Source: a virus
Strand: one strand, 5' to 3'
IMG/VR virus record: IMGVR_UViG_3300020421_000106
Location: 1-28,321 of that record
Length of the DNA stretch: 28,321 nucleotides
This document shows, in pieces, positions 2,988 to 23,567 of the stretch (its first letter is position 1; every line of letters starts with the position of its first letter). Under the pieces are notes generated by a model. It saw only the letters and a program-made list of their open reading frames with translations, was not told the origin of the DNA and searched no databases. The position numbers were made by a program, and so were the translations under genes.

Positions 2988-3395
2988 ATGCCAATACAGA
3001 ATGTAAGGCGATCACAAGGATTTAAGGACATTAGTTTTTCCTTTTTACCTCATCCTGTGACCAAGGATTTACCAATATTGAAGAATGAACGTGCGATTGT
3101 TCGTGCCGTTCGCAATTTGGTAGAGACGATTCCTACTGAACGCTTCTTTGACTCTATGATAGGGTCTGAAGTACGTGGACTACTCTTTGAGAACTATACA
3201 GCACCCATTGCGATAGCAATTGAAGACCAGATTATTACTACAATTAAGAATCATGAGCCTAGAGTAGAGAATGTAGCAGTTGATCTTAATGCTCTACCTG
3301 ATGATAATAGTCTAGAGGTTACTGTTTTCTTTGATATTGTAGGTTTAGATGTACCTCGCCAAGCATTTACGTTCATATTAGAACCAACCAGATAA
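2988..3395 (+). CDS. gp25: Baseplate wedge subunit gp25
   Basis: This 135-residue protein is a close length match to T4 gp25 (about 132). gp25 is the conserved small wedge protein that sits between the inner baseplate and gp6, and it is shared by contractile injection systems. The family core is visible: LKNERAIVRAVRNLVETIPT (31-50) followed by MIGSEVRGLLFE, with the E-V-R (61-63) at the position of the family's conserved EPR signature. A helix-strand C-terminal domain then ends in PRQAFTFILEP. The ATG at 2988 gives the usual short N-terminus. The gene is first in the late unit, with gp6, its direct partner in the T4 wedge, 4 nt downstream. Confidence 0.93.
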   Translation: MPIQNVRRSQGFKDISFSFLPHPVTKDLPILKNERAIVRAVRNLVETIPTERFFDSMIGSEVRGLLFENYTAPIAIAIEDQIITTIKNHEPRVENVAVDLNALPDDNSLEVTVFFDIVGLDVPRQAFTFILEPTR

Positions 3396-5361: not shown

Positions 5362-8300
5362 ATGAGTATAGAATTCGATAAGAAAGTACAAGTAAATACC
5401 ATTATAGAGAATCAGCTTCCACAATTTTTGGTTGCTGATTTTCCTAATGCTACTGAGTTTTTTAAACAGTACTACCTCTCACAAGAGTTTCAGGGTGCTA
5501 ATATTAATTTAGTTGATAATCTTGATAATTATCTTAAAGTAGATAATTTAGTTCCAGAAGTTGTTATTGGAACTACAAATATTACTGATGATATTGATGC
5601 TTCTGGTGATACCATTACCGTTGAATCTACAAAAGGATTTCCTGATGAGTATGGTCTATTAAAAATTGATGATGAGATAATCACTTATACAAGTAAAACA
5701 GATATTAATTTCTTTGGTTGTATTCGTGGATTCAGTGGTATATCAAATCTTAGTGGATCTACAACATTAGATAGTGTTAATAAGCAAGATTTAGTTTTTG
5801 AAGAGACACAAGCTGCTGCTCATACTGCAGGTTCTAGTGTTACTAACCTTAGTGTACTCTTTTTACAGGAATTTTATCAAAAATTAAAGAAAACCTTCTT
5901 ACCTGGTTTAGAAGATAATGAATTTGTAGATGGTCTTGATGTTGGAAACTTTATTAAGAATGCTAGATCTTTCTATCAGTCAAAAGGTATAGCAGAGTCT
6001 ATCCGAATATTATTTAAAGTATTATATGGCGAACATGCTGACGTATTAGATCTAGAAGAAAGATTAATTAAACCTTCTACTGCTGAGTATATTCGCAGAG
6101 AAGTTGTCATTGCAGAAGCAATTTCTGGTGATCCTGCTAATTTAGTAGGTCAAACTATTACTAAATCAACAGATTCTCAAACTTCTGCTTCTGTTTCGGA
6201 GGTAGAGATATTTGAAAGAAATCTTGGCATTGGTGCTAATATTAAAAAAACTTACTACAAGATCTCATTATTTGTAGGTTTTAGTGATAGAGATTTAATT
6301 GAAGGAATATTTACTATTCCAGGTAAAACTAAGGTACTAGAACCTGTTGCTATTGGATCTGATGTTATTTCTGTTGATTCTACAATAGGATTTCCTAGTA
6401 GCGGAACTGTAATATCTGGAGATAATACTATTACATATACTTCTAAGACTGTAAATCAGTTCTTAGGGTGTTCTGGAGTGGTATTTGCAATACATGATGC
6501 TGATGATTTAAGAGCAGATGAAGTAGTATTTGGATATGAGAATGCTGATACTTCTAAGAAAGTTGAATTAAGAATTACTGGTGTTCTATCCGATTTTGTT
6601 ATTTCTGGTGATGTAAATCTAATCAAAGAAGGTGAGAAGATTTATAGTAAGAATATGGGTGAAAGTATATCATCATATAACGTATCCAATGTTGATGATA
6701 GTAATAGAACCTATAAGCAAATTTTTGCTAATTCTTGGAAGTATAATACAAGTAGTCGTTATCAGGTAGATTCTTGGCCTGTTAATGGAAACCCATCTTT
6801 ACTAAGTCCAATTGATAAATCAAGTCTTGCTATTGGTGATAATATTGAAATATTTGATAGATTTGGATTAGATTCAGTTGGATCTGCTGTTATTAGTAAT
6901 ATTGATGAAAGTGATAATACTCTAACAGGATTGGACAACTTAATATGGAGCAGACCCGATGATCCTCATCCTGATAGAAATTATGATATACGTAGAATTA
7001 TAAGAAAATCGAAGTTAGAAACAACAGTTAATAGTGATGATCTTGTATCTTTTGGTAATAGTAATGAAAAATTTATTGCTGATGTATTAAATGTATATGT
7101 TGACGGAGATACTGATGGTTATGTAACATCTAACTCATTACCAAGTTATGGTGTTGATGCTGAATATATTAGAAAGTCTTTTGAGACTGGTAATGCCAAT
7201 ACTTTAGAATTACCCCAAACAACTGATCCGATAGATCCTTCTATTGCTATTGATTATATACAGATTAAATTTGATAGTCCTACAGTATTCAGTGATGGAG
7301 ATGCTGTTGTTTATGAAGCATATGACAAAACAACTGGTGCTGCAGCAGATACTCTTGTTGGAATTACTACTTTAAATCCAGATGGTACAACAAGAGTATT
7401 TTATCTTGATGTATCTGCTGATAAACAATCTATAAGATTACATGATTCTGTAGGTGCTATCGGTATATCTACGATTGTAATTAATAAAGCACCTTCATTT
7501 GTAAATACTGGTGTTATTCATAGATTTACTTCTGCTAGTGTTTATAATAGGACTCTAACTAATAATCCAATATTAAGGAAGTTTCCACTATCACAAGATC
7601 TTAACATAGCAGAAAAAGGTGAAAAAACAGAAAATAATGTTGGTGTTTTGATAGATGGTGTTGAAATTAAAGCAGCAACATCGTTAGATTTTGTTAAATA
7701 TGGTCAAATTAGTAGTGTTGACATTTTTAATGGTGGAGAGGGTTATGATGTATGTAATCCACCTAAAATTAAAATTGAAGATTCTACAGTAAGTACAGCA
7801 ACTACTGCATTAGCAGAACCTGTAGTTACTGGATCAGTTCAGGAAGTTATTGTTGAAACTCAGAATTTTGATATTGATCAATGTCGTTCAGTATCATTAG
7901 TTGGTGGTAATGGTAAGGGTTGTCTTCTAGAACCAGAAGTTGGTCCTAGATTCAGACAAATGAAGTTTGATAGTCAAGATTCCTTATTTAATGGTGGTGT
8001 TGACCCAGTTAATGAAGTTATAAGATTTATTGATACTCACGGTTTAAGAGATGGTGAGAGAATATTCTACAACAGCAATGGAAATGACGCAATTGGAATA
8101 GGTGCTTTCCAAAGTGGTGCTACCACAGTTAGTGATTATTTGGTAAATGGTGCTCCATATTACGTAAATGTACTTAATGATAGGAATATACGTTTGTTTA
8201 ATACTCCTGAAGACGCTTTAACAGGATCTACAGGTATCAATACAATTGGATTCTCTACTACAAGTAATGGAGTTCACATATTCAGAACAGAACCCAGAAA

Positions 8301-11300
8301 TACACTAAGATCTGTCAAGGTTGTTAATTCAGGTAGTGGTTATTCATATAAAAAAGTTATAGTTCCTCCCGTTGGTATATCTACTTCTTATGATTTGGTT
8401 CAATTTGAGAATCATGGATTCAAAGAAGGTGATATTGTCAAGTATGACACAATGGAATATGATGGATTTAGTGATCCAATAACAGAATTAAGTACTTATA
8501 ATTCATATACTGTAATTAAAATAGATGATAATGCATTCAGATTATCTGATAATGGTGTTGTGGATGCTCAAGACTGGGAAGCAGCAAAAGCATATGTTGT
8601 TGATGATTTAGTAAAGGAATCAAATAATACTTATATTTGTGTAACCAATCACACATCATCCAGTGCATTTATAGATGATTCTTCTAAATGGGAGTTAACT
8701 AAGAAAAAGGATGATTATAAGAGAGGTAAGTATGTCAATCTTACTAGTACAGGAACTGGATATAATGTATTCAAATACCCTGATATTACAGTAACTGCCA
8801 GTGTAACTTATAAGTCAAATAAGGCAGTTGGAACAATTAACTTTACACCTATTGTAACTGGTACTATTACTGGTATAGATCTTTATGAAAAGGGTAATAA
8901 GTATGGATCAGAGGTTATAAACCATAATAGAGATCCAGAAGGTTATGTACAAAATGGTAAAGAAGCAGAATTAAAAGCAATTGTATCAGATGGTAAAATA
9001 ATTGATGTTTATGTTCTTAATAAAGGGAAGGAGTATTATTCATTACCAGAAATAAAACTTACTGGATCTGGAACTGGTGCTAAGTTTAAACCAGTAGTTT
9101 CTGATGGGCAATTAACAGAAGTTACAGTTATAAATGAAGGAATTGGTTATTCTCAATCAGATACCTTTATTGTTGCCGAATCTAGAGGTAAAAATGGTTT
9201 CGTTAAGCCAAGAATTAGTAATTTTAATGTAGATATTGCTTCTCGTCGTAGTAATTTCCATTTAGAACCACATGGTGATGATAAATTGGTTTTAAGTGCT
9301 TATAGTTATGGTGGAAAAGTTGCAACTGCATTTGATGGTCTTGGTAGTGGTGGTCATTCCCCTATAATTGGTTGGGCATATGATGGTATTCCAATTTATG
9401 GACCAAATGGGTTTAGTGAACCAGATAAGTTTGGATCCACTATAAAGAGGATGGTATCTGGATATTCTAAGGATAGTGTTAAAATTGCTGATGATATTGC
9501 TGCTGGTATTAGACCAGCATTATCAAAATTCCCTGAAGGATCATTAATACAGGATTGGGAGTATAGTAGTGATAAAGATCTTGATGACCATAATGGTAGA
9601 TTCTGTAAGACACCTGAATTCCCTAAAGGAATCTATGCTTATTTTGCCACTATTGATGAAAATCAAGATCCAGTATATCCATACTTTATAGGAAAAACCT
9701 ATAGATTACCATACATTACAGGTAATAATGTCTTAAATCAGGAATTTGATTTTAATAGTACGACATTATCAAGAAATACTTTCCCGTACAAAGTAGATGA
9801 TAAATTTGCTGATAATGATTTCATTATAGAATCTAATGAAATTGTTAGGCAAATGTCTACTGTTGAATCTGTTACTAGAGGATCTGTATCAGAATTTGAA
9901 ATTTTAGATGGTGGTGATGGATATAAAGTCGGTGACTTTACAGTATTTGATAATACCGAAACTAATGGAACTGGTGCTAGAGGTCAAGTAGATGAAATTG
10001 TTGGTATAGGTGTTTCAAGTATTGAAACTGAATTAACTAAATTTGAAAATGTAGTATTTGAATGGAATAATGATTCCACTGTTTTTGCCAATCTTTATCC
10101 ACACGTTAGTTTAAATGATCAAGATACTGTTATAGTTTCTGGTTTAAGTACAACTAATGTTGCATTAACAAATTCATTTACTATTGGTATTAAAACAGAT
10201 ACCATGACATTGGTAAAAGAAATACCTCAAAATACTAATCCTAATGGAACTGTTGAAGATATCTACGTTAACTTTATCTCAGATGTTGTTTCTATAGGAT
10301 CTTCTATAAAAATTAATGATGAGTATCTAAAAGTATTGAATCTATATCCTATAGGATCTATAATAAGAGCAAAAAGATTTGGTACGGGAAATATTGTTTC
10401 CTATGGATCTACAATAGATGCTTTAGCAAGTAAGATCAGTATACCTGTTAGATCTCAAAGGTTTGAATCTACTCTCAATAAAGTAGTTTATTTCAATAGT
10501 ACTAAGTCTGTTGGTATTGGAACAACCAGTGGATCTTTTATTGACTATTCAATAGGTGAGAATAATAATCAAGTACCTGTTCCAGTTCAACAAATATATG
10601 TACCAAATCATGGATTTAGTACTGGTGATAAGATATCTTTCCGTAAGGATATAATTTCAGCACCTCCTGCGACTTCTTTATTAGTAAGTCCTAAGATTGA
10701 TGGTAGTGGTATTGTCAATATGCCTGATATAAACAGTGGTAAGACCGATGTTTATGTTATTAATAAAGGAACTGATTATATTGGATTAGCAACTAATGCT
10801 GGTGCTGCTCATACTACAGGTGGATTATATTTCTATGGTAATGGATCTGATAGTTATGAATATTCATTTACTACAAATTATGATCAAGTAGATGGTGATA
10901 TTAGTAGAATAACATCTACAGTGGTAACGAAAGTTGCTGCTGCTAATACATCAACACATGGTTTAAAAAATGGTGATGTTATTAGCCTCAATATAGTTCC
11001 AAATCATGTTGTTGGGTATGGTAATACCTTTGAGGTAGATGTTCGTTATAATTCTGAATATGAAAAATTACTCTTTAATCCATTAGACTTTGGTGTTGCT
11101 GGTGTATCAACTTCAGGTGATGATATTAATCCAAATACATTTACTATATTAAATCATGGATTTAGTACTGGTGATAAGGTATTCTATGATAGTGATCAAA
11201 TTATTTGGGATACTCCAAGTAATACTGGATTTACAACAGGATCATATTTTGTTCATAAATTAGATTCTAATACATTCTATCTCGCAGAGACACTAAAAGA

Positions 11301-14300
11301 TTCTCAATCTGTTCCTGCAAAGATTATTGGAATTGCTACTGAAGGTGGATTAACAGCAGAACATACTATAGCATCTATTAATCCTAAGATAGAAGTTGTT
11401 AAAAACTCACAATTAACATTTGGTTTATCTACTTCATCCTTATCTGGATTTGATTTTGATATTTACTATGATAAGGAATTTAAGAATAAATTTGTTAATT
11501 CTGGAGATTCAACTGATTTTAATGTTGTAAAGGGTGGAGAAATTGGCAATGAAGTAGTTGGAGCCGCTTTAACTATAAGAGTTTCTAAATCACTTCCAAG
11601 TAAGTTATTCTATTCTCTTGAGAAATCTGGGTATATAAGCACTGCTGATAAGGATGTATATAATTACTCTGAAATATCGTTTGTTGATAGTTTATATAAT
11701 GGTGAATATGAGATATTTGATGTAACCGATGATGAATTTAAATTCTCACCAAGAAGAGAGCCAGAATTACTTAAATATGATGATCGTGATTGTGATAAGT
11801 TAGAGTATTCAACAAAATCATCTGATGTTATTGGACCTATTAAAGGTCTTAAAACAATCTCAACAGGATTTGCCTATAAGAGAGTTCCTAAATTTAGTCA
11901 TGTTGCTAGTGAAAATGGTAGAAATGCAAATATTGTTGCTATATCAACATCAATTGGTAATATTAATCAAATAAGAATTAATGATATTGGTTTTGAATAT
12001 TCTGCTGATAAGACATTAAGACCAGAAGCATCTATCTCACCAATTGTTACTATTGATAATTTAGATCAAGTTTCTTCTGTTGATATTGTTAGTGGTGGTT
12101 TAAATTATTTAAGTGCTCCTAAACTATTACTCTTTAATCCAAATACAAATCAGGTAGTTGATAGTGATTCTTTTATAGCAATAGTTCCTGAACAATCAAT
12201 AGCAGAAGTTGAAATTGCTGCTCCAGTAAAGGGTTTAGAATCAGTAAATCATAGATTAATAGCAATTGACAATTCTAATGGAGTTGGTATCAATTCAATA
12301 TCTGTTGATGGTGATACAACAGTTGTATGTAGACTTCAAACCCCATTAAATGGGTTTAGAACACCTCCATTTGCTGTTGGGGATGAAATATTCGTTGAAG
12401 GTATTCAACGTGTTGGTGAGGCAGGTATAGGCGTTAGTAACACTGGTCAGACAGCAACTACTGTGGAAGGTGATGGATTTAATTCTTCTGATTATAATTA
12501 CCAATTCTTTACAGTTACTGAGTACTTATCATCAAACCCAGATGTACTGAAATTTGATTTAGTTGGCGTTACTACTAATCCAGGTGTTGCTAAAGTATTC
12601 CAATCTGGATATGCTAATATTGTTAACAGAAAGGTTTATCCTGAGTTAGAAGTAATTCAAGATAGAGCAGAATTTTCAGATAATGAATCTATATTAGTTC
12701 AACAGTCTGGTAGTTATATTAAAAAAGATATAAGAATCGTAGAATATAGGGATGATTATATTAAAACTGATGGTTATGATAACTTAAAGGTTGGTGATAG
12801 GTTTATCGGTAATGTTAGCGGAACGGCTGCCAATGTAACTGGAATCACGAATAGTAAAGCTAAATTCAACGTTGATTTCTCAAGTAGAGTTGATTATGGT
12901 TGGAATGACAATATTGGAAAGTTAAATGAAGATTTCCAAGTTATACCTAATAACGATTATTATCAGAATTTATCTTATTCTGTTAAGAGTCCTATTACAT
13001 GGGATAAATTTGTAGATCCTCTGAATAGAGTTATTCATCCAGCAGGTCTTAAGAATTTTGCTGATACAGTAATTCAAGATACAGCAAGTTTTGTTGGTGT
13101 TGGTACAACTCAACCAGCAGTTGCAGATATTACAATAGATGTGATTGAGGAAAAGAGAGTTGATGTAATTAATAATTTTGATTTGGCTATTGATTATGAT
13201 GCACTAGATGATAGATCAAAATTTATAGAATTCCAGAATGTAAAGTTAACTGATTATACAAAATGTTTGACTAATAGGGTATTGATTCACGATGATATTA
13301 GTGATAGATTCTCTAGTGCTGGTATAGGAGAGAATTTTACAGAAATTGAGGAAATTAATGGAAATTATGTAAAATATCTTGTTCAGATAACAGACCCAGA
13401 TAGTTTTGATGTTCAACTAAGTGATTTGGTTGTTTTGACCACAACTAATAATGCGTTTTTACTTGAAAAAACATCTGATTATTCTGGACATTTGTTGGGA
13501 GAATTCTCTGCTGATAGTGCTGATGCTGAGAGAAAAACTTTAATATTTACTCCAACAGAAAAATTTGATGTTGATCATGATATTAAAGTATTAAAAACAT
13601 CATTTAGTACTGATGTTGCTGGTATTGGAACAGAAACTTTTGGATCAGTTAAATTGGTTGGTGATAATGTTAATGTTGGTAGTGCTACTACAACTGTTAG
13701 TTCGACAATATCAGGAACAATTCAGAACGATGATTTAGTATTAACAGTTACTGATTATGATTTAAACAGTACTGATGCTGGATATGATAAGGTAATTCCA
13801 AATTTAATTGGATCATATTTAAGTTCTTGGGAAACAAAGAGTAGTTCTGCTGGTTTATATGAAGTAGGATTCGCAGTTACATCTATTACTAGTTCAACAA
13901 CTGCTAATTTAGTTCCTGTTCAGAAGACAACTACACTTGTACAGGATCCTGATACTGGAGTAATAACAATAAGGAATGACTTTATTAAGATACTTCCATC
14001 ATCAACTATTACATATTCTACTGATTATACAGTAGCATCTGATATTGGTTTCTTAGATAATACTGACATTCAAAGTATTGTCTTGGGTATCACTACAACA
14101 ACACTTTATAAAATTGATGAAAATGATTTCAATGGATTATCTGCTGATCTTGTTATCCAAGATGATTTCACTAGAGCTCTTAACTATAATGAAGTTCTTT
14201 TAAATATAGATCATGTAACTGATGAATTACAATTAGTAGAATCTTATACTGATACTACAGTAAATGAAGATGGTATACCACTTAGTTATAGTGCTAATAC

Positions 14301-17300
14301 CATTGGTATTCTTACTGCTACACATGATGGAAATTATGTAAATGTTAATATTGTTAATGATAGAAATAGAACACTATCTGCTGGAGTAAATGTTGTTGGT
14401 TTAGGAACTACAACTGCTGGAATAGGAACATATAGATTTAATGTTACTGGGCAACCAATTGGTGCTGAAAGATCAGCAAGATTAGAATCTACTTATTCTG
14501 GTGAAGCAGGTATTTCAACCGTAACTAGATTAAGTAGTGAAATTGATAGTAGTTTAAAATCATTAATTCGTGTTTCTTGTGGTGATACTACAGTATTACA
14601 TCAAGTAATCTTAATGCAGGATAAAGATAGTGATGCTGCTGTAGTTGAATATCCATATATTTCAAATGATTATGTTTCTGGAATTGGAACATTTGGAATA
14701 TCAAATCCAGATGCTGGAGTATTATCATTTAATTTCTATCCTGATGATGGAACCAATGGTACATTGGACTATACATCATCTATAGTTGAAGTTCAAGCAT
14801 TTAATACAATATTCCAAACAGTAAATGATTTTGAAAATGAAGCAGATATTCTTGAATATGGTCCTATTGTTTCTGATTTAGTTCTATCTGCTTATGATGG
14901 TCCTAATGGTGATAGAGCAAATAAAGTTAATTTTGAACTTAAGCATGAAGGAACACCAATCTACTATAAGAGATTTAATCCAAGTGATACTTCACAGTTA
15001 GATTTAGCAACAGGTAAGTTTACTTTATCTAATCATTTCTTCAATACTAATGAAGAGTTAACATATACACCATATTCTACTTTTATAGGTGTTCCTGCTA
15101 CTGCTCCAGGAATTGCTTCTACTGAAGGTATTGATGGTACTGTTATTAATACTTTACCAGAAACAGTTTATGTTAAAGCACTTTCTGGTGACGAATTCTT
15201 CTTGTATAGTAAGAAAGAGTATATTACTAGTGGAGATCCAATAACATTCACTAATTCAGGATCTGGTAATGCTCATAAGTTCCAGATGAGTAAAGTTTTA
15301 AGTAAAACTGTAATTGGATTAGATGGAATTGTTCAACAACCAATATCATATACAGCAGTAGAACATAATTTACAAGATGATGTTGGATTTGATTCTGTTG
15401 GTGTAGCTGTAACACAATTTGCATTAAGTGGTATTAGTTCAATACAACCAAGAGATGTATTGAAGGTTGGTGATGAGTATATGAAAGTTATAGAGGTTGG
15501 TTTAGCAGAATCTAATTCACAAGTACCTGATCCAGTAACTGGTAAATTACCAGCTATTGGTTCTGAAAAAGGAACTATACCCGTTGTTAACGTAAAGAGG
15601 GGTACTTTGGGTAGGGCAGCACAGTCACATAGTGCTGGAGCATCTTCAAGAGTTCATAGAGGATCATTTAATATTGTTGATAGTACAATTTGGTTCTTAG
15701 ATCCACCAAAAGGTAATACAAGACAGAGAAGAAGTGAAACAAATTTACCATACGTTAAGGCAGAATATAATGGTAGAACATTCTTAAGAACAAATTATGA
15801 TACCAATATGGTATTTGATGATATATCAGATTCATTTACTGGTATTGGAAGAACTTATACACTAACTGTTGGTGGTGCTAATACTGTTACTGGTGTTGGT
15901 GTTGGAAATGGGGTATTATTCATTAATGGAGTATTCCAGACACCATTAACTTTGAACAACTTAGGTAATAACTATGAATTTGAAAGTGATACTAATGTTG
16001 GCATATCAAGTGTTATGTTTACTGGAATTACTTCTGAAAATGGAAGTAGAATCCAATCTGAATATGATATCAACCAAAACCAGATTCCAAGAGGTGGTTT
16101 AATCAATACTCTAGGATCAAAAGCAGGTCTTGGATATGCACCTCTTGTTGGTGCTAGGGTAAAGGCGGAAAAGACTGCTGGTATAATCACAAGTTTAGTT
16201 GGTGTTGCTCATTCATCACTTAGTAATATTAATATTGTAGATGCTGAATATGATAATAATAGTGGAATTATTACAGTAACAACTGATAATCCACATTATT
16301 TCTCGTTAGACAATCCATCAACAGTTTTACTCAATCAATTAGAGTTTGAATGTAGTTCATCATATGCTGGAGTAACAACAACAGTATTCAATGATGATAA
16401 TCGTTCGATACCTGTAGTAGCAATTACTTCAGAGAGAACTTTTGAAGCATTCTGTGGTATTTCTACAATTAATCACAATTATGTTCATGGTGGAACTTAC
16501 TATAATGGTGGATATGTTTGTGAGTTCTATGAAGATTTAACATTTGGATCTGGATATAGAGAACCAGTTTCAATTGGAGTAACTGATATTGCTTATGAGC
16601 ACAGATTTATATCTGCTGCTTCTAATAGTGTTGTTAAGAACACTGGTGGTACAAATAGTACACAATATCAACCAACAAGTGCTGAATATGAGTCACATAC
16701 TGGTAGATTGCTTTTAGATGTAGGATATCATACTTTAGAGGCAGCAACTGCCTATGGTATCGATACTGCTTCTTATAGTGCTACTACAGGTAAATTAACA
16801 ATAACTAAAGCAGGACATGACTTTGTTGTTGGTGATTGGGTTAAGATTGTTGATTATGGAATATCATTTAAGTGTTCTATGGATAATTATGGATCAGTTC
16901 ATCCATATCCAAGACCAACAGATCCAATTAGTGGTAAATGGGTTCAAGTAACCAATAAAACTAATAATACATTTAAAGTAGAAGTAGGAACATCTCCTAT
17001 TGTTAAATTTACACCAACAACAGGAACTACATATGATCCTAATACTGGATTAATGGTATTAGAAATTGGAACACATACTTTAACTGTTGGAACAAGTATT
17101 AAGATTGCAGAAGAAGGATTGAAATTTAGTTGTGGATTTGGTGGTGCTAGTGGTACTGCTGCTGAGAAATCATATCCTAGATCTAATGGTAATGATCCAT
17201 TCTATGATAGTGCCTTTAATATCGTAGATGTAACTGAAACAACAATAACAGTTCAGGTATTAACAACTATTCCATCTACTAACGTAGATCCTCATACCTT

Positions 17301-20300
17301 TGTTGATGCTGTAGCAGATTGTGTAGAAACTGGTGGTAATTATACTCACCAATATGCTTCCCATTTGGATGGATGTATATTGAAAGCGAAGGATACAGTT
17401 ATTCTTAATGATGATACATTAACCTTTACTTGCTCTAGGGATAATCATTTTAGTAAGCATACTTATCCAAGATCAACTGATCCTGCTTCAAGTGCTACAT
17501 TAGGTATTGATGCTGTTAGTGACGATACTATTATTATAAACGTTGGACCAGGTGGTGGTGCTGGATTTGGTGGTCATGTAACTGCTAAGATTGCCGAGAA
17601 TGATCATAAGTATGTGAGTTCTTCAGCAATGGGTCTTACTGCTAATTCTGGAGGACCATTTAACATAACCACTGCGGATTATGATCCACAAACTGGTATA
17701 ATGTCAGTTACAACTAATCTTGCTCATAATTTCACAGCAGCAGATGTTACAGGTATATCAACTGCTTCATATGATCCTACTACTGGTATTGTAACATTAG
17801 AAACAGCATCTGCTCATGGATTTAGTAATGGTGATTATATTAAGATTGCTGAAAAATCTTTATTATTTACATGTGCACAAGATGAAGATTTAACTAAACA
17901 TGCTTATCCAAGAAAAACTGATCCTATTCATAATAAGTGGATTCAGATTTCAAACATAACTTCAACTACTTTTGATATCCAATGTTTACTTAATACACCT
18001 TCTACAAATACAACAGTTCATAAGTTATATTCTGCAGAACCAAATAATATTCAGAGAGCAAATAATACTGTTGAATTTGCCCAAGAATGTATAGTATTCA
18101 CCTGCAACAAGGATCGTCATGCTACAACTCACGCATATCCAAGAATATCTGATCCAATATATGGTTTATCTGTTGGTGTAGAGACTATTGTTAATACTAC
18201 AACATTTACAATTAATGTTGGTAAATCACCTGCTGGAACTGGTGGATCTCTAGAATTTAATGTTATTAATGGTGGAGCAAATTATGTAAACCCAGAAATT
18301 ATAACACCTGACCCAGTTTATCAAAATATGCCAATTGAAGGTATTTCTAGATTGGCTCTTGGAGAAACTAAAGAAACTGGAGTTAATTTATTACTTGATA
18401 TTGATGTAGATACTACTTCTGCTCCTGGTGTCAGTACATCATTAACACCAACTAGTGCTTCTTATAATCCATCTACTGGTATTTTAGGTCTTACTTTTGA
18501 TAGTACACATTTAACTGATTCTGAATTTAAGAATGGTGATATGATTACTATTGCTGATAATTCTCTATCATTTAGATGTGATATGGGAAGCAATGAGATT
18601 AAGACATATCCAAGACCTGGATTGGATCCTGCTTGTAGACAAGATTTAAAAGTTACTAACTTATCTTCTACTAGTTTTGATGTTCAGATTGGTAAATCCC
18701 CTACTGTAACTTATGATGTATCTAATGCCACCTATAATGGATCTAATGGTAAATTAGTTCTTACAATTGGTGCTAATCATGGACTTAAGAAGGGATCTAC
18801 TCTTAAATTAGCAGATGAATCAATAGCATTCACTTGCACTGCTCCTACAGGTACTCACGATTATAAAGGTGGTACGGTTACAAATGCTATTACAATTACT
18901 GCTGGTAATGTTCAGAAAGATGTTACTAATGCTTCATATGATCCTACTACTGGTCTCTTAGTATTAACTATTGGATCTCATAGTTTTACAACTAGTGATA
19001 CTGTTACTATTGGTGCTGGTAAGATTGTCTTTAGTTGTGATGCTGATAATCATGCTACCAATCATTCTTATCCACGTTCAGGTGATCCTGCTTATAATAC
19101 TGCTAGACCAATTACTGCTGTTGATACTACTGGTGGAACTATTACTGTTGATGTTGGCATTGCTAATCCAACAGGTAATACAAAGTCATACCCAAGAACT
19201 ACAATTGATACTCACACTGCTCAAGCAGGAACAACATATGAACCAGCCACTGGAGTTTTGACTGTAACTACAACATCAGATCATAATATGAAAGATGGTG
19301 ATTGGGTTAAGATTGCTGATAATGCAATTTCATTCATATGCGAATATGGTGTTGGGGAACATATTTACGATGGTGGAACAGCAACTGATGTTCTTACAAT
19401 AACACCTGTTGGTGCTCCATTTGACCAAACAAAGAGTGTAACTTGGGCTGATTATGATCATTTAACTGGTGATTTGGTATTAACTATCGGAACACACAAT
19501 TATTCAGTTGGTGATGCAGTTAAAATTGCTGATAATGGATTATCATTTACTTGTTCTGCTGATAGTCACCAAACATCACATACTTATCCTCGTGCTGTTG
19601 CTGCTGATGGTCAACCAGATCCAGCGTATGATACTGCTTTAAATATTACTGCTGTTGATACTACTGGTGGAAAGATTACAGTTAATGTTGGTGATGTTAG
19701 TGATGCTAGTAGAACAAAATCTTATCCAAGATCAACTGATGGTATTAGTGGTAACTGGATTAAAGTATTTTCTGCTTCTGGATCAACATTTAAGATAGAT
19801 GTTTTACAAGGAGATGTTTCAACTAATAATTCTACTCATACATTTGCTGGATGTGTTGCTAATGCTATAAGTCAGAAACGTGATAGAGCATATGATTCTC
19901 CTATTGAGGTTATTTCTGCTAATCAGGGTGCAGGAACAATAACATTACAAGTTGGTAAGACTGGTAACTTAAACACACATACATTTGATTCTGGTTCAAC
20001 AACTGCTGGTGCTGTTATTTCTGGTGGTAATTATAATCATACGTTTGTTAAATCTGATTCTGGTAGTATTACTAGAGGATTTAATCAGAATAATGAATTA
20101 TTTGGTATAAAGAATTTCCAAGTAGCAAGACAAGGACATTCATTTGCTATTGGAGATAGAATGAAAGTTGTTGGTCTTGTTACTTCTGCCTTAGTTCATG
20201 AACCAATTCAAGAATTTGAATTAAATGTTGCTTCAACAAGCAATGATTACTTTGCGGCATGGCAGTTTGGTGAAATAGATTTTATTGATGATATTAGATT

Positions 20301-21909
20301 CTTACAGGATGGAATTAGAACAAGGTTCCCAATATTCTTGAATGGTCAATTATTGAGTTTTGAAAAGGATGAAACGGATCCATTATCTGCTCAAATAGAT
20401 CTTAATGCTGTACTATTAATATTTGTCAATGGTGTTATCCAAACTCCTAATTGGGCATATCAATTCTTTGGTGGAACTTCATTTACATTCACTGAACCAC
20501 CAGATACTAATGATAAGGTAGATATCTTCTTCTTTAAGGGGCAAGATGGTATTGATATTAAAATAGTTGATATTGATGAAACAATTAAAGTTGGTGATCA
20601 GTTACAACTTAAAAAGCATAATGGATTAAAAGATACTAGATCTCAGTATAAAGCTAGAACTGTTAAAGAACTCCTTTCTTCAGACCTTGTTGAGACTGAA
20701 GTATATCGTGGACCTGGTATTAATGAAAATGACTTTAAACCAGTAGATTGGTTGAAGCAAAAGCAAGATACCTTTATAAATGGTGAAAAGATTTCTAAAA
20801 CAAGAGATTCTATAGAACCTCAAATTTATCCTACTGCTAAAATTATTGGAGACGTTACTACTACAACTGTAGGTAAGGATGGAGTAGATTATGGAATATT
20901 TGTTGATGATGCTCAGTCATTCCATTATGAAGATTTGGGTAATCCTAATATTGATCCTGGTGATAGGTACAATATTACTGTTGATCAGGTAGATGCGATA
21001 ATATATTCACCTGAAAATAATGATCTAGAATCAGCAAATATTACTGCTAATGTTTCAAATGATGGAACTGTAAGTTCTTTGACAATTGTAGATGGTGGTA
21101 GTGGATATAATGGATCCGTCACATTATCAATTGGTGCTCCTATTGGTGTTGGTGTTGGAACTCTAAATCGTGAAGAATATGAAGTTGCTGGTACATCAGA
21201 ATTTGCTAAAGCAACTGCTACAGTAACAAATGGAAGTATTACTGATACATTAATTACTGATATTGGAAAGGGATATAGTTCTACTAACCCACCACAGGTT
21301 AATGTGTCTTTAGATGCTACTGAATTTGAGAAGGTTACAAAAATTACAAATGTACAAGGTTGGTCAGCAATTATTACAGGAATTGCAGTAACAGATGGAA
21401 CTAATGGTAATGATGCTCTTAAATTTGAATTCCAAGTTGAAAGTAATCAATTAGCAGCAGATCTTCTTGTTGGATATCCAGTATTAATTCATGATACTCA
21501 ACTTGGAGATGGAGTTATTTCTATCGATGCTGATGATGCTAGTGTTGTTGGTGTAGGAACAACGTTCCTAGACAATGTATACAAGGTTCATCAAATTACG
21601 GGCACTCAAAGGACTGGTGTTATAACATGTAATGTTTCTAGTACATCTGCTATTGCTGGAATAGCACAAACAGGTCAATATGATCAAACTAATCTTGGTA
21701 TTACTACTTCTTTAGGTAGAATATCATGGGGTAGATTATACAATCCTTTAGATGGAGTTGTTAGGGATGAAACTCCATTAAACTTAGTAGTTTCTGGTAA
21801 AACGGTTAATGTTGGACTATCTTCATTCCCCACAATTCAACGTAGAACTTACGATCCTGCTTCTCATAAGGGACTAAGAAACACTGGTGCTATTAGGACT
21901 ATAGGATAA
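5362..21909 (+). CDS. gp7: Giant gp7-position baseplate/tail protein, YHYH domain
   Basis: One uninterrupted 5,515-codon frame starts at the ATG directly after the gp6 stop. It lies between gp6 and gp8, the place of gp7 in T4. Residues 17-40 (LPQFLVADFP...EFFKQYY) and 200-300 (ARSFYQSKGIAESIRILFKVLYGE at 202-225, LVGQT at 261) resemble the C-terminal part of T4 gp7 as I remember it; T4 gp7's long N-terminal part is absent. A second core piece, YYQNLSYSVKS to IHPAG (2558-2562), comes only about 2,250 residues later. Between them lie two GFP...YTSKT repeats (about 85-130, 338-375), many GxGY beta segments, a YHYH domain (about 1295-1450: HSPIIGWAYDGIPIYGP; RFCKTPEFPKGIYAYF) and two NHGFSTGDK motifs. 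After it lie a NGVFQTP region (about 3410-3540), an F-x-C/YPR repeat array (about 3627-4903) and a second NGVIQTP region (about 4980-5080). Virion location is near certain; the wedge role is inferred. T4 gp7 is about 1,030 residues. Confidence 0.85.
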   Translation: MSIEFDKKVQVNTIIENQLPQFLVADFPNATEFFKQYYLSQEFQGANINLVDNLDNYLKVDNLVPEVVIGTTNITDDIDASGDTITVESTKGFPDEYGLLKIDDEIITYTSKTDINFFGCIRGFSGISNLSGSTTLDSVNKQDLVFEETQAAAHTAGSSVTNLSVLFLQEFYQKLKKTFLPGLEDNEFVDGLDVGNFIKNARSFYQSKGIAESIRILFKVLYGEHADVLDLEERLIKPSTAEYIRREVVIAEAISGDPANLVGQTITKSTDSQTSASVSEVEIFERNLGIGANIKKTYYKISLFVGFSDRDLIEGIFTIPGKTKVLEPVAIGSDVISVDSTIGFPSSGTVISGDNTITYTSKTVNQFLGCSGVVFAIHDADDLRADEVVFGYENADTSKKVELRITGVLSDFVISGDVNLIKEGEKIYSKNMGESISSYNVSNVDDSNRTYKQIFANSWKYNTSSRYQVDSWPVNGNPSLLSPIDKSSLAIGDNIEIFDRFGLDSVGSAVISNIDESDNTLTGLDNLIWSRPDDPHPDRNYDIRRIIRKSKLETTVNSDDLVSFGNSNEKFIADVLNVYVDGDTDGYVTSNSLPSYGVDAEYIRKSFETGNANTLELPQTTDPIDPSIAIDYIQIKFDSPTVFSDGDAVVYEAYDKTTGAAADTLVGITTLNPDGTTRVFYLDVSADKQSIRLHDSVGAIGISTIVINKAPSFVNTGVIHRFTSASVYNRTLTNNPILRKFPLSQDLNIAEKGEKTENNVGVLIDGVEIKAATSLDFVKYGQISSVDIFNGGEGYDVCNPPKIKIEDSTVSTATTALAEPVVTGSVQEVIVETQNFDIDQCRSVSLVGGNGKGCLLEPEVGPRFRQMKFDSQDSLFNGGVDPVNEVIRFIDTHGLRDGERIFYNSNGNDAIGIGAFQSGATTVSDYLVNGAPYYVNVLNDRNIRLFNTPEDALTGSTGINTIGFSTTSNGVHIFRTEPRNTLRSVKVVNSGSGYSYKKVIVPPVGISTSYDLVQFENHGFKEGDIVKYDTMEYDGFSDPITELSTYNSYTVIKIDDNAFRLSDNGVVDAQDWEAAKAYVVDDLVKESNNTYICVTNHTSSSAFIDDSSKWELTKKKDDYKRGKYVNLTSTGTGYNVFKYPDITVTASVTYKSNKAVGTINFTPIVTGTITGIDLYEKGNKYGSEVINHNRDPEGYVQNGKEAELKAIVSDGKIIDVYVLNKGKEYYSLPEIKLTGSGTGAKFKPVVSDGQLTEVTVINEGIGYSQSDTFIVAESRGKNGFVKPRISNFNVDIASRRSNFHLEPHGDDKLVLSAYSYGGKVATAFDGLGSGGHSPIIGWAYDGIPIYGPNGFSEPDKFGSTIKRMVSGYSKDSVKIADDIAAGIRPALSKFPEGSLIQDWEYSSDKDLDDHNGRFCKTPEFPKGIYAYFATIDENQDPVYPYFIGKTYRLPYITGNNVLNQEFDFNSTTLSRNTFPYKVDDKFADNDFIIESNEIVRQMSTVESVTRGSVSEFEILDGGDGYKVGDFTVFDNTETNGTGARGQVDEIVGIGVSSIETELTKFENVVFEWNNDSTVFANLYPHVSLNDQDTVIVSGLSTTNVALTNSFTIGIKTDTMTLVKEIPQNTNPNGTVEDIYVNFISDVVSIGSSIKINDEYLKVLNLYPIGSIIRAKRFGTGNIVSYGSTIDALASKISIPVRSQRFESTLNKVVYFNSTKSVGIGTTSGSFIDYSIGENNNQVPVPVQQIYVPNHGFSTGDKISFRKDIISAPPATSLLVSPKIDGSGIVNMPDINSGKTDVYVINKGTDYIGLATNAGAAHTTGGLYFYGNGSDSYEYSFTTNYDQVDGDISRITSTVVTKVAAANTSTHGLKNGDVISLNIVPNHVVGYGNTFEVDVRYNSEYEKLLFNPLDFGVAGVSTSGDDINPNTFTILNHGFSTGDKVFYDSDQIIWDTPSNTGFTTGSYFVHKLDSNTFYLAETLKDSQSVPAKIIGIATEGGLTAEHTIASINPKIEVVKNSQLTFGLSTSSLSGFDFDIYYDKEFKNKFVNSGDSTDFNVVKGGEIGNEVVGAALTIRVSKSLPSKLFYSLEKSGYISTADKDVYNYSEISFVDSLYNGEYEIFDVTDDEFKFSPRREPELLKYDDRDCDKLEYSTKSSDVIGPIKGLKTISTGFAYKRVPKFSHVASENGRNANIVAISTSIGNINQIRINDIGFEYSADKTLRPEASISPIVTIDNLDQVSSVDIVSGGLNYLSAPKLLLFNPNTNQVVDSDSFIAIVPEQSIAEVEIAAPVKGLESVNHRLIAIDNSNGVGINSISVDGDTTVVCRLQTPLNGFRTPPFAVGDEIFVEGIQRVGEAGIGVSNTGQTATTVEGDGFNSSDYNYQFFTVTEYLSSNPDVLKFDLVGVTTNPGVAKVFQSGYANIVNRKVYPELEVIQDRAEFSDNESILVQQSGSYIKKDIRIVEYRDDYIKTDGYDNLKVGDRFIGNVSGTAANVTGITNSKAKFNVDFSSRVDYGWNDNIGKLNEDFQVIPNNDYYQNLSYSVKSPITWDKFVDPLNRVIHPAGLKNFADTVIQDTASFVGVGTTQPAVADITIDVIEEKRVDVINNFDLAIDYDALDDRSKFIEFQNVKLTDYTKCLTNRVLIHDDISDRFSSAGIGENFTEIEEINGNYVKYLVQITDPDSFDVQLSDLVVLTTTNNAFLLEKTSDYSGHLLGEFSADSADAERKTLIFTPTEKFDVDHDIKVLKTSFSTDVAGIGTETFGSVKLVGDNVNVGSATTTVSSTISGTIQNDDLVLTVTDYDLNSTDAGYDKVIPNLIGSYLSSWETKSSSAGLYEVGFAVTSITSSTTANLVPVQKTTTLVQDPDTGVITIRNDFIKILPSSTITYSTDYTVASDIGFLDNTDIQSIVLGITTTTLYKIDENDFNGLSADLVIQDDFTRALNYNEVLLNIDHVTDELQLVESYTDTTVNEDGIPLSYSANTIGILTATHDGNYVNVNIVNDRNRTLSAGVNVVGLGTTTAGIGTYRFNVTGQPIGAERSARLESTYSGEAGISTVTRLSSEIDSSLKSLIRVSCGDTTVLHQVILMQDKDSDAAVVEYPYISNDYVSGIGTFGISNPDAGVLSFNFYPDDGTNGTLDYTSSIVEVQAFNTIFQTVNDFENEADILEYGPIVSDLVLSAYDGPNGDRANKVNFELKHEGTPIYYKRFNPSDTSQLDLATGKFTLSNHFFNTNEELTYTPYSTFIGVPATAPGIASTEGIDGTVINTLPETVYVKALSGDEFFLYSKKEYITSGDPITFTNSGSGNAHKFQMSKVLSKTVIGLDGIVQQPISYTAVEHNLQDDVGFDSVGVAVTQFALSGISSIQPRDVLKVGDEYMKVIEVGLAESNSQVPDPVTGKLPAIGSEKGTIPVVNVKRGTLGRAAQSHSAGASSRVHRGSFNIVDSTIWFLDPPKGNTRQRRSETNLPYVKAEYNGRTFLRTNYDTNMVFDDISDSFTGIGRTYTLTVGGANTVTGVGVGNGVLFINGVFQTPLTLNNLGNNYEFESDTNVGISSVMFTGITSENGSRIQSEYDINQNQIPRGGLINTLGSKAGLGYAPLVGARVKAEKTAGIITSLVGVAHSSLSNINIVDAEYDNNSGIITVTTDNPHYFSLDNPSTVLLNQLEFECSSSYAGVTTTVFNDDNRSIPVVAITSERTFEAFCGISTINHNYVHGGTYYNGGYVCEFYEDLTFGSGYREPVSIGVTDIAYEHRFISAASNSVVKNTGGTNSTQYQPTSAEYESHTGRLLLDVGYHTLEAATAYGIDTASYSATTGKLTITKAGHDFVVGDWVKIVDYGISFKCSMDNYGSVHPYPRPTDPISGKWVQVTNKTNNTFKVEVGTSPIVKFTPTTGTTYDPNTGLMVLEIGTHTLTVGTSIKIAEEGLKFSCGFGGASGTAAEKSYPRSNGNDPFYDSAFNIVDVTETTITVQVLTTIPSTNVDPHTFVDAVADCVETGGNYTHQYASHLDGCILKAKDTVILNDDTLTFTCSRDNHFSKHTYPRSTDPASSATLGIDAVSDDTIIINVGPGGGAGFGGHVTAKIAENDHKYVSSSAMGLTANSGGPFNITTADYDPQTGIMSVTTNLAHNFTAADVTGISTASYDPTTGIVTLETASAHGFSNGDYIKIAEKSLLFTCAQDEDLTKHAYPRKTDPIHNKWIQISNITSTTFDIQCLLNTPSTNTTVHKLYSAEPNNIQRANNTVEFAQECIVFTCNKDRHATTHAYPRISDPIYGLSVGVETIVNTTTFTINVGKSPAGTGGSLEFNVINGGANYVNPEIITPDPVYQNMPIEGISRLALGETKETGVNLLLDIDVDTTSAPGVSTSLTPTSASYNPSTGILGLTFDSTHLTDSEFKNGDMITIADNSLSFRCDMGSNEIKTYPRPGLDPACRQDLKVTNLSSTSFDVQIGKSPTVTYDVSNATYNGSNGKLVLTIGANHGLKKGSTLKLADESIAFTCTAPTGTHDYKGGTVTNAITITAGNVQKDVTNASYDPTTGLLVLTIGSHSFTTSDTVTIGAGKIVFSCDADNHATNHSYPRSGDPAYNTARPITAVDTTGGTITVDVGIANPTGNTKSYPRTTIDTHTAQAGTTYEPATGVLTVTTTSDHNMKDGDWVKIADNAISFICEYGVGEHIYDGGTATDVLTITPVGAPFDQTKSVTWADYDHLTGDLVLTIGTHNYSVGDAVKIADNGLSFTCSADSHQTSHTYPRAVAADGQPDPAYDTALNITAVDTTGGKITVNVGDVSDASRTKSYPRSTDGISGNWIKVFSASGSTFKIDVLQGDVSTNNSTHTFAGCVANAISQKRDRAYDSPIEVISANQGAGTITLQVGKTGNLNTHTFDSGSTTAGAVISGGNYNHTFVKSDSGSITRGFNQNNELFGIKNFQVARQGHSFAIGDRMKVVGLVTSALVHEPIQEFELNVASTSNDYFAAWQFGEIDFIDDIRFLQDGIRTRFPIFLNGQLLSFEKDETDPLSAQIDLNAVLLIFVNGVIQTPNWAYQFFGGTSFTFTEPPDTNDKVDIFFFKGQDGIDIKIVDIDETIKVGDQLQLKKHNGLKDTRSQYKARTVKELLSSDLVETEVYRGPGINENDFKPVDWLKQKQDTFINGEKISKTRDSIEPQIYPTAKIIGDVTTTTVGKDGVDYGIFVDDAQSFHYEDLGNPNIDPGDRYNITVDQVDAIIYSPENNDLESANITANVSNDGTVSSLTIVDGGSGYNGSVTLSIGAPIGVGVGTLNREEYEVAGTSEFAKATATVTNGSITDTLITDIGKGYSSTNPPQVNVSLDATEFEKVTKITNVQGWSAIITGIAVTDGTNGNDALKFEFQVESNQLAADLLVGYPVLIHDTQLGDGVISIDADDASVVGVGTTFLDNVYKVHQITGTQRTGVITCNVSSTSAIAGIAQTGQYDQTNLGITTSLGRISWGRLYNPLDGVVRDETPLNLVVSGKTVNVGLSSFPTIQRRTYDPASHKGLRNTGAIRTIG
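9241..9720 (+). other. YHYH domain segment within the giant protein
   Basis: Codons about 1295-1450 of the giant gene encode the YHYH family pattern. It has F1299-H1300, then PHGDDKLVL, H1332 in GGHSPIIGWAYDGIPIYGP, DLDDHNGRFCKTPEFPKG and YAYFATID...YPYFIG. YHYH domains are common in marine phage tail proteins and in secreted bacterial proteins; their biochemical role is unproven. The terminal C-K-T-P-E-F-P and YPYFIG blocks are intact, so the domain appears complete. Confidence 0.8.
10606..11178 (+). repeat. 27-nt exact direct repeat pair inside the giant gene
   Basis: Bases 10606-10632 and 11152-11178 are identical and in frame. They encode NHGFSTGDK at residues 1749-1757 and 1931-1939, 182 residues apart. 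The flanking sequence is only loosely similar. This marks an internal duplication of a beta module with an H-G-F-x-x-G-D-x-V plan. The module recurs in weaker form elsewhere in the protein, for example HGLRDGERIFY and HGFKEGDIVKYD near residues 894 and 1018. Confidence 0.8.
16240..20068 (+). repeat. Array of F-x-C / YPR protein repeats
   Basis: Residues about 3627-4903 of the giant protein consist of repeats with the plan (A/T)-x-Y-(D/N)-P-x-T-G...GxH...G-D-x-(V/I)-K-I-A-(D/E)...(L/I)-x-F-x-C...(H/K)-x-Y-P-R-x-x-D-P...I-x-V-x-V-G. I count 11 F-x-C and 10 Y-P-R motifs. The Y-D-P-T-G-type unit starts fall at bases 16240, 16681, 16768, 17026, 17674, 17764, 18457, 18727, 18931, 19231 and 19447, and some units lack one half. 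Two DNA stretches are repeated exactly: 24 nt at 17764-17787 and 18931-18954, and 27 nt at 19111-19137 and 19645-19671. This points to recent amplification within the array. Confidence 0.9.
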
Positions 21910-21924
21910 TGGTGAACTTATGAC

Positions 21925-21932
21925 TATAAATA
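21925..21932 (+). promoter_or_regulatory. T4-like late promoter before gp8
   Basis: TATAAATA, an exact match to the T4 late -10 consensus, lies in the 47-nt gap between the giant gene's stop and the gp8 ATG at 21957. It is the largest gap in the late cluster. Initiation would be expected about 12 nt downstream, leaving a short leader before gp8. No terminator is visible before it, so gp8 can probably be read from both promoters. Confidence 0.8.
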
Positions 21933-21956
21933 AAGAAAAAAAGTACTGTTTATAAG

Positions 21957-23567
21957 ATGCCTGCAATTGTAACTGATCAATTTAGAATTCTTAATGCTAG
22001 TAATTTCGTAGAGAACGTCACTAACGGAAGTAATTCATATTACGTTTTTATCGGACTTGCTAATCCTAAGACTCCAACAGAGAACACAAAACTCTTTGGT
22101 AGGGATTGGAATTGGAATTCATCTGGACAGACACCAGCACCTATAGATAATTTTACCAATAATTATCATGTAGGGGATACCATTCTCTATGGTAAAAAGA
22201 TTACTGCTGATAATATTCGTAGAGTTATTAGAAAAGTTACTTGGGAACCAAATACAAGGTACGATTTTTATAGAGATGATGTTAGTTATGAAAATAAATC
22301 TAAGAATACTAACGTATCAAATCTATATTCATCAAACTATTATGTCATAAACAGTGAATTTAAAGTTTATGTTTGTATATCAAATGGTGCTACTGGTTCT
22401 AATCCACAAGGTAATATTTCTGCCGATCAACCAAATTTTACAGACCTAGAACCATCTAAAGCAGGTGGTAGTGGTGATGGATACCTTTGGAAATACTTAT
22501 TTACAGTTTCTCCTGCAGATATTATAAAGTTTGATTCTACAGAGTATATTACAGTTCCAAATAATTGGTCAACTTCCGTAGATCCTAGTATAAGATCTGT
22601 CAGAGAAAATGCTGACTCTACTGTTAATAGTAATCAATTAAAGCATGTCTATATTGATAATGCTGGTATTGGTTATGGAAACTTTACTGGAAAAGAATGT
22701 GATATATTGGGTGATGGATCTGGTGCTAAAGCAAGAGTAGATGCTACTAGTGGTAAGATAACAAATGCTGTAGTTAGTGCTGGTGGTAAAGGTTATTCTT
22801 ATGGAATTGTAGATTTAGGTACGTCTAATACTTCTTCAATTCAAACATTAGCAAAATTGGTTCCATTAATTCCTCCATCTAGGGGTCATGGATTTGATAT
22901 CTATACTGAATTAGGAACCGATAAGGTTCTTATATATGCTAGATTTGATGATGCTACTAAAGATTTTCCAGTTGATGCTAAATTTGCTCAAGTTGGTATT
23001 TTAAAGAATCCAACAAAGTCTGAAAGTACTGAAATTTTCTCAGAAGGTCAGTTTTCTGGACTACCTGCTATTAAAATGGATGATTCAGATTCATTAAATC
23101 TTCCTAGTGGATCTTTGACTGTTGGGGAAAAAATTACGCAATTGAGAGGAGATGGTAAAACCGCAGAGGCATATGTTGCTTCATATGATATTGATACTCA
23201 CGTAATTAAATATTTTAGAGATAGATCTTTAAATTATAGTACAGCACAAGATCAAACAGATTATTCTGGTGTTGCCAACAAAGGTACATTTTATGATTTT
23301 GAATCCACTAAAGCAAATAACACACCAGCAAATAATATTGTTGGTGAAAATGGATATAGTGGACAGGTTTATGGATCCTTCACTGGTATTACTACTGCCA
23401 GTAAAGATGGAACTAAAGTTATTAACTTAGGAACTACTTTCAATGAAGGGTTATCTAAATCAGAGATAAATAAAGGATCAGGGGATTTAGTGTATGTCGA
23501 TAATCGACCACTTATTGCTAGAAACCCTAGACAAAAAGAAGACGTTAAAATCATTCTGGAATTCTAA
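21957..23567 (+). CDS. gp8: Baseplate wedge subunit gp8
   Basis: T4 gp8 is a dimeric outer wedge protein of 334 residues that binds gp7 and gp10. This 536-residue protein keeps the family's landmarks, compared from memory. The N-terminus has VTDQFRILNASNFVENV and YYVFIGLANP (near 28-37). The strongest block is GSGDGYLWKYLFTVSPADI (171-189) leading to EYITVPNNW. The C-terminus SGDLVYVDNRPLIARN...ILEF (508-536) matches the T4 ending with its 'ENRPPI' segment. The excess of about 200 residues includes a GxGY beta insert (about 228-282: NAGIGYGNFTG and SAGGKGYSYG) of the same kind found in the giant neighbour, so the two wedge partners have taken up related modules. It has its own late promoter and lies 6 nt before the next gene. 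Confidence 0.9.
   Translation: MPAIVTDQFRILNASNFVENVTNGSNSYYVFIGLANPKTPTENTKLFGRDWNWNSSGQTPAPIDNFTNNYHVGDTILYGKKITADNIRRVIRKVTWEPNTRYDFYRDDVSYENKSKNTNVSNLYSSNYYVINSEFKVYVCISNGATGSNPQGNISADQPNFTDLEPSKAGGSGDGYLWKYLFTVSPADIIKFDSTEYITVPNNWSTSVDPSIRSVRENADSTVNSNQLKHVYIDNAGIGYGNFTGKECDILGDGSGAKARVDATSGKITNAVVSAGGKGYSYGIVDLGTSNTSSIQTLAKLVPLIPPSRGHGFDIYTELGTDKVLIYARFDDATKDFPVDAKFAQVGILKNPTKSESTEIFSEGQFSGLPAIKMDDSDSLNLPSGSLTVGEKITQLRGDGKTAEAYVASYDIDTHVIKYFRDRSLNYSTAQDQTDYSGVANKGTFYDFESTKANNTPANNIVGENGYSGQVYGSFTGITTASKDGTKVINLGTTFNEGLSKSEINKGSGDLVYVDNRPLIARNPRQKEDVKIILEF

Follow-up and report, generated by a model that had tools for sequence, protein, structure and literature searches.

The abundant viruses of the ocean include T4-like cyanophages, and most of their giant tail proteins have no known function. 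Among these are the cyanophage gp7 proteins (T4-GC 397), named 'baseplate wedge initiator', and the members of PHROGs 2885, 5342, 1276 and 701, which already contain the repeat considered here; their function is annotated as unknown or is derived from gene position, and we found no description of the repeat unit, its fold or its invariant cysteine for any of them. In the estuarine cyanophage S-CREM2, a protein that resembles the present one in gene position has been detected in virions, where it was represented by 91 unique peptides (PMC10665884). Chemostat evolution experiments have reported mutations in very large S-PM2d proteins and in structural proteins (PMC9910659), and adaptation of S-TIM4 fell mainly within genes for fibres and the baseplate (PMC6224464); in both cases a repeat protein may be among those affected. 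Outside the cyanophages, the phage K1F endosialidase has a polysialic acid-binding barrel whose loops influence host discrimination (PMC12632334). Here, we present a repeat array in a gp7-like protein of a marine T4-like cyanophage, and we consider it probable, though by no means certain, that the array is a string of FCCH-like beta-barrels which serves as a spacer and adhesin arm, with one structural buried thiol per barrel.

A giant gp7-like protein and its repeat array

The window, that is the whole 28,321-nucleotide stretch analysed from virus record IMGVR_UViG_3300020421_000106, contains a single open reading frame at 5362..21909 (+) that encodes 5515 amino acids and spans the whole array, which lies in its C-terminal third. 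The genes of this 28 kb record are arranged in the order gp25 (2988..3395, +), gp6 (3400..5361, +), giant ORF and gp8 (21957..23567, +), the named neighbours being baseplate wedge families, and a DUF4815 protein is also encoded downstream. Residues 2-1073 of the giant protein match phrog_2885 ('baseplate wedge subunit') with 1224 bits. Its relatives in P-SSM4, P-HM2, P-HM1, S-SSM7 and P-SSM2 are annotated as gp7, baseplate wedge initiator, and S-SCSM2R has an identical gene order around its gp7-like gene. The giant protein is thus a homologue of annotated cyanophage gp7, placed between gp6 and gp8, and the sequence-only reading, which had treated the repeat as part of a phage fibre, is borne out in that the array lies in a predicted virion tail protein. 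Homology to T4 gp7 itself is seen in one local match rather than over the full length, hence the name 'gp7-like': a cyanophage profile of the N-terminal segment aa 117-420 (5710..6621, +; shared PHROG 26741) matches T4 gp7 residues 710-758 with 24.4 bits, in a single-sequence search whose E-value is not a database E-value. A phmmer search of the N-terminus against the PDB returned no T4 gp7 chain and chance-level matches only.

Several further features of the locus were recorded. A gp9-like gene lies between gp7 and gp8 in P-SSM4, S-TIM4, Syn9 and S-RIM8; it is absent here (21909..21957), and gp8 directly follows the giant ORF, as in S-SCSM2R. The giant protein also contains a CBM_5_12 carbohydrate-binding module (aa 1072-1102, 8575..8667; 26.7 bits against the Pfam cut-off of 26.2) and a YHYH domain (PF14240; ~aa 1253-1434, 9118..9663), which was detected as two pieces. 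Elsewhere in the window, a small ORF at 356..922 matches the anti-restriction PHROG phrog_36653 (E 1.8e-10) and, weakly, ArdA, and an ORF at 1853..2608 matches phrog_1574 (unknown) and, weakly, a glycosyltransferase PHROG.

The array extends over approximately aa 3626-4866 (16237..19959) and comprises eight complete F-x-C...YPR...DP units together with partial ones. Three F-x-C motifs lack YPR and belong to N-terminal half units or to a wider kind of unit (aa 3662, 4490 and 4658), and two YPR halves without a cysteine are orphans (aa 4610 and 4788). Against these eight complete motifs, none arose when the region was shuffled 20,000 times. Furthermore, a profile trained with near-identical relatives left out recovered all eight at 50-93 bits, as well as partial units, whereas 200 shuffles of the protein yielded a maximum of 2.5 bits. 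The earlier observation of about a dozen repeats at 16240-20068 therefore stands, with its extent and composition revised as above. In the (H/K)-x-Y-P-R-x-x-D-P motif that had been proposed, the alternation of His (6/10 window YPRs) and Lys (4/10) is confirmed, but the distance from YPR to DP is not fixed and varies between 2 and 9 residues.

All elements of the array lie on the + strand (bit scores in brackets). It begins at aa 3626-3711 (16237..16494) with a unit that lacks YPR and is of the wider kind, LEFEC...INHNYVHGG, followed by a weakly detected isolated first hairpin (aa 3771-3795, 16672..16746; 3.2 bits). Two complete units come next: unit 1 (Cys 3838, HPYPR..DP; 16759..16998; 116 bits) and unit 2 (Cys 3924, KSYPR....DP; 17020..17274; 96 bits). 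Unit 3 (Cys 4024; 17308..17556; 98 bits) is of B type, with a GGNYTHQY hairpin in place of the first hairpin. After a second isolated first hairpin (aa 4102-4130, 17665..17751; 13.8 bits), the complete unit 4 (Cys 4171; 17752..18000; 116 bits) precedes the B-type unit 5 (Cys 4248; 18016..18231; 46 bits), which has an HKLYSA strand before it. The complete units 6 (Cys 4406; 18445..18702; 97 bits), 7 (Cys 4559; 18919..19167; 107 bits) and 8 (Cys 4731; 19435..19701; 110 bits) alternate with two N-terminal half units without YPR, FTC...GTHDYKGG (Cys 4492; 18715..18915; 27 bits) and FIC...GEHIYDGG (Cys 4660; 19222..19419; 32 bits), and an orphan C-terminal half without a cysteine (KSYPRSTD...; 19705..19815; 20 bits) follows unit 8.

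A unit is built from a hairpin (ASYDPTTG...L.I), a strand HGF..GD.VKI, the strand L.F.C, a loop and the strand H/K-x-YPR; the remainder consists of ..DP...I..V, TFTVNVG and a last, closing strand HTFVSA. An equivalence between the His of the short form FTC...GTHxYxGG and that of HxYPR was considered and dropped, the better counterpart being the closing strand HTFVSA.

Predicted fold and distribution of the unit

Multi-unit structure prediction with AlphaFold2, as the sequence-only reading had suggested, yielded a recognisable FCCH-like barrel fold. Two models were obtained, one of two A-type units (units 1-2; pLDDT 81.6, pTM 0.57) and one of an A-B pair (units 4-5; pLDDT 87.5, pTM 0.73), and both are almost entirely beta and form beta-barrels. 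In VIA-align, the solved structures that best match the A-B model are the UBA6 and UBA1 FCCH domains (Z 7.8, rmsd 2.5, 72-74 residues aligned). The barrel of the phi92 endosialidase, 4hiz, comes next (Z 7.0, rmsd 2.1 over 75 residues), and then that of the K1F enzyme, 1v0e/3gvj (Z 6.2-6.3). For the A-type model the top structural matches are phi92 (Z 6.3) and UBA6 (Z 5.2). Z values under 8, as here, may reflect no more than a common arrangement. Foldseek, in which no PDB match reached E <= 0.001, also ranked FCCH domains first for the A-B model. The structural match runs over model residues 1-105, so that the HKLYSA/HTFVSA strand probably closes the preceding barrel.

At the level of sequence, the leading Pfam match in the array is E1_FCCH (PF16190), at 18.4-18.8 bits (cut-off 29.5; best E 0.00065). 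This weak match and the agreement of the two models underlie our view that the array looks like a series of FCCH-like bead barrels, an assignment at fold level with Z under 8. No Pfam model reaches its cut-off in the array, NCBIfam gave no meaningful match, and phmmer against the PDB gave chance-level matches only. Matches of the profile in the PDB to an iota-carbonic anhydrase and an adhesin (E 0.005-0.013) were judged to be due to chance. The search of Pfam, PHROG and NCBIfam for a family annotation that would explain the motif thus found none, E1_FCCH being sub-threshold. PHROG 1276 is listed as 'unknown function' and no paper naming the repeat was found, in agreement with the earlier statement that it has no named function. 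The predicted fold is of an already known kind, and the repeat is unnamed in the literature found.

Family statistics rest on 131 fetched loci, of which 127 ORFs supplied 638 distinct units that were near-complete, with an effective number of 368 at 80% identity. Columns G10, C38 and P50 are invariant in this set, and Y49 (98%), H19 and R51 (97% each), Y5 and D54 (96% each) are nearly so. In contrast, position 47, the His of HxYPR, is His in 61% and Lys in 28% of units; of the Cys and His previously ascribed to each unit, the single cysteine proves invariant in complete units and the His does not. No HxH column is conserved among the 638 units. Among the 34 units of a wider set that lacks YPR, most read (F/Y)P-(D/R) and have no His.

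The repeat is restricted to cyanophages in the searched collections, which were scanned with single protein sequences as queries. A consensus-like unit found 376 phage records, all of them Synechococcus or Prochlorococcus phages, cyanophages or marine single-cell viruses, and a unit of the wider kind found 87 records, all likewise from cyanophages or marine single-cell viruses. A first scan of bacterial and archaeal genome contigs returned no loci and a second returned four; the three of these that were tested all have phage tail or virion neighbours, and are therefore read as phage contigs rather than bacterial genes. On a 188 kb contig filed under the bacterium Nonlabens xiamenensis (L129:1-20237), a giant ORF with the repeat lies next to a phage virion gene, and the contig is probably a co-sequenced phage. 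Outside gp7, the unit is also present in S-WAM2, in a tail protein, and in Sf-CH1b, in a tail fiber protein; a hypothetical protein encoded by ACG-2014f has the wider kind. Between one and 25 units are present per ORF, and half units have been gained, lost or moved between phages.

A proposed modular arm and the invariant cysteine

Variation from one to 25 units and exchange of half units are as expected of a modular arm. This modularity, the analogy with the K1F barrel, and the CBM_5_12 and YHYH domains in the giant protein lead us to propose an arm of the baseplate wedge with spacer and weak adhesive roles. The beads would form an extended structure that sets the reach of the arm, with units added, halved and swapped between phages, and the bead loops could offer many surfaces for weak contacts with picocyanobacterial envelopes; by analogy with K1F, these contacts may possibly involve glycans. 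The cysteine of each bead would lie on the core side of the barrel mouth.

The same modularity, together with a fold that is a generic small barrel, would also suit beads that bind nothing and only set arm length while the conserved N- and C-terminal parts do the work. We regard this explanation as possible but rather unlikely, since YPR and the cysteine are under strong selection and the restriction to cyanophages suggests a host-related use.

The cysteine is the strictest feature of the unit, being present in 638/638 distinct near-complete units. Searches with masked columns were run to exclude a search bias toward Cys: it is found in 641/641 units with its own column masked, and in 638/638 with H47, Y49, P50, R51 and D54 masked as well. 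When columns 36-39 were masked, ten apparent exceptions arose, all of which are alignment slips with F-x-C beside the column. The residue is also kept in 34/34 wider units without YPR and in partial forms (B-type 119/119, N-terminal half 118/121). TGT makes up 83% of its codons and TGC 17%, so that the site undergoes silent changes but keeps its meaning.

As for its position, columns 34, 36 and 38 are L, F and C, while columns 35 and 37 are mostly Thr, Ser, Lys or Arg. Covariation of the column pairs 35-48 and 35-46 assigns 35, 46 and 48 to a common face, opposite to that of 34, 36, 38, 47 and 49. From this strand alternation and covariation we infer a core-facing cysteine at the strand end, at the barrel mouth and near position 47, and its role is most likely that of a structural, buried and unpaired thiol.

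Disulfides formed outside the cell, between adjacent units or with other baseplate proteins, could instead lock or stiffen the arm. One absolutely conserved cysteine per complete unit would suit such bonds, there is precedent in the disulfide cross-linked tail and baseplate of phage Milano (PMC10811340), and unit 3 has two extra cysteines at equivalent positions (aa 3987 and 4005). However, the cysteine is kept in S-RIM8 and Syn9, whose proteins have a single recognised YPR-type unit, which argues against an inter-unit bond as its conserved role. It also appears to face the core, and other cysteines average 0.07 per unit, so that no regular partner exists inside the unit. We therefore consider this explanation improbable, and the disulfide role raised by the sequence-only reading is weakened. 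The extra pair in unit 3 (17320..17376) follows two consecutive H-x-F/Y strands and possibly forms a local disulfide.

A buried structural thiol does not account for everything. An ordinary buried cysteine usually tolerates replacement by Ala, Ser or Val, and zero change in 638 units exceeds what a plain structural thiol predicts. The cysteine might instead be chemically active, through a covalent or redox-sensitive link with the His or Lys that would lie diagonally at the barrel mouth, for instance a bridge from Cys to Lys or a disulfide specific to the virion. This is a long shot; if true, the baseplate arm would be a fibre of as many as ~25 similar sensors that responds to redox conditions.

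Finally, a metal ion such as iron held in each unit by the Cys with His, Asp or Tyr, akin to the HxH iron sites that exist in T4 gp37 and have been proposed for marine phage fibres (PMC11705849), would fit the conservation of C38, D41, Y49 and D54 in the YPR subfamily but is very unlikely and weakened as a claim, as Lys replaces His in 28% of units, the cysteine persists in 34/34 relatives without His or YPR, which argues against a His-based site, and no second ligand is conserved across both subfamilies.

A defined bead unit with a predicted fold is an expressible piece for adsorption tests, and a cysteine unchanged in ~640 units regardless of its neighbours poses a clear single-residue question.

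Comparison with known systems

T4 gp7 resembles the giant protein in that its gene likewise lies between those for gp6 and gp8 and that one stretch of ~50 residues matches, whereas at 1032 aa it is far shorter, and the remainder is without a match. The E1_FCCH domain of the ubiquitin-activating enzymes UBA1 and UBA6 (PF16190) is like the array in the predicted barrel over model residues 1-105, closing strand included, and the hairpin and HGF..GD strand of the unit supply the weak Pfam match; in contrast to family members, the array scores 18-19 bits against the cut-off of 29.5. To our knowledge, neither the Cys nor YPR is a feature of the E1_FCCH family. 'FCCH' is only a name here, the catalytic Cys being part of a different half-domain. 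The phi92 and K1F endosialidase barrels resemble the unit in structure (Z 6.2-7.0, rmsd 2.1-2.2), and the K1F segment 429-508 that aligns with the array model includes S460, S468 and G504 of the sialic-acid-binding barrel (PMC12632334). Whereas the endosialidase barrel is present in single copy in a capsule-degrading enzyme, the array is multi-copy, with no sequence match found between them; like the proposed arm, the endosialidase barrel is part of a phage adsorption protein.
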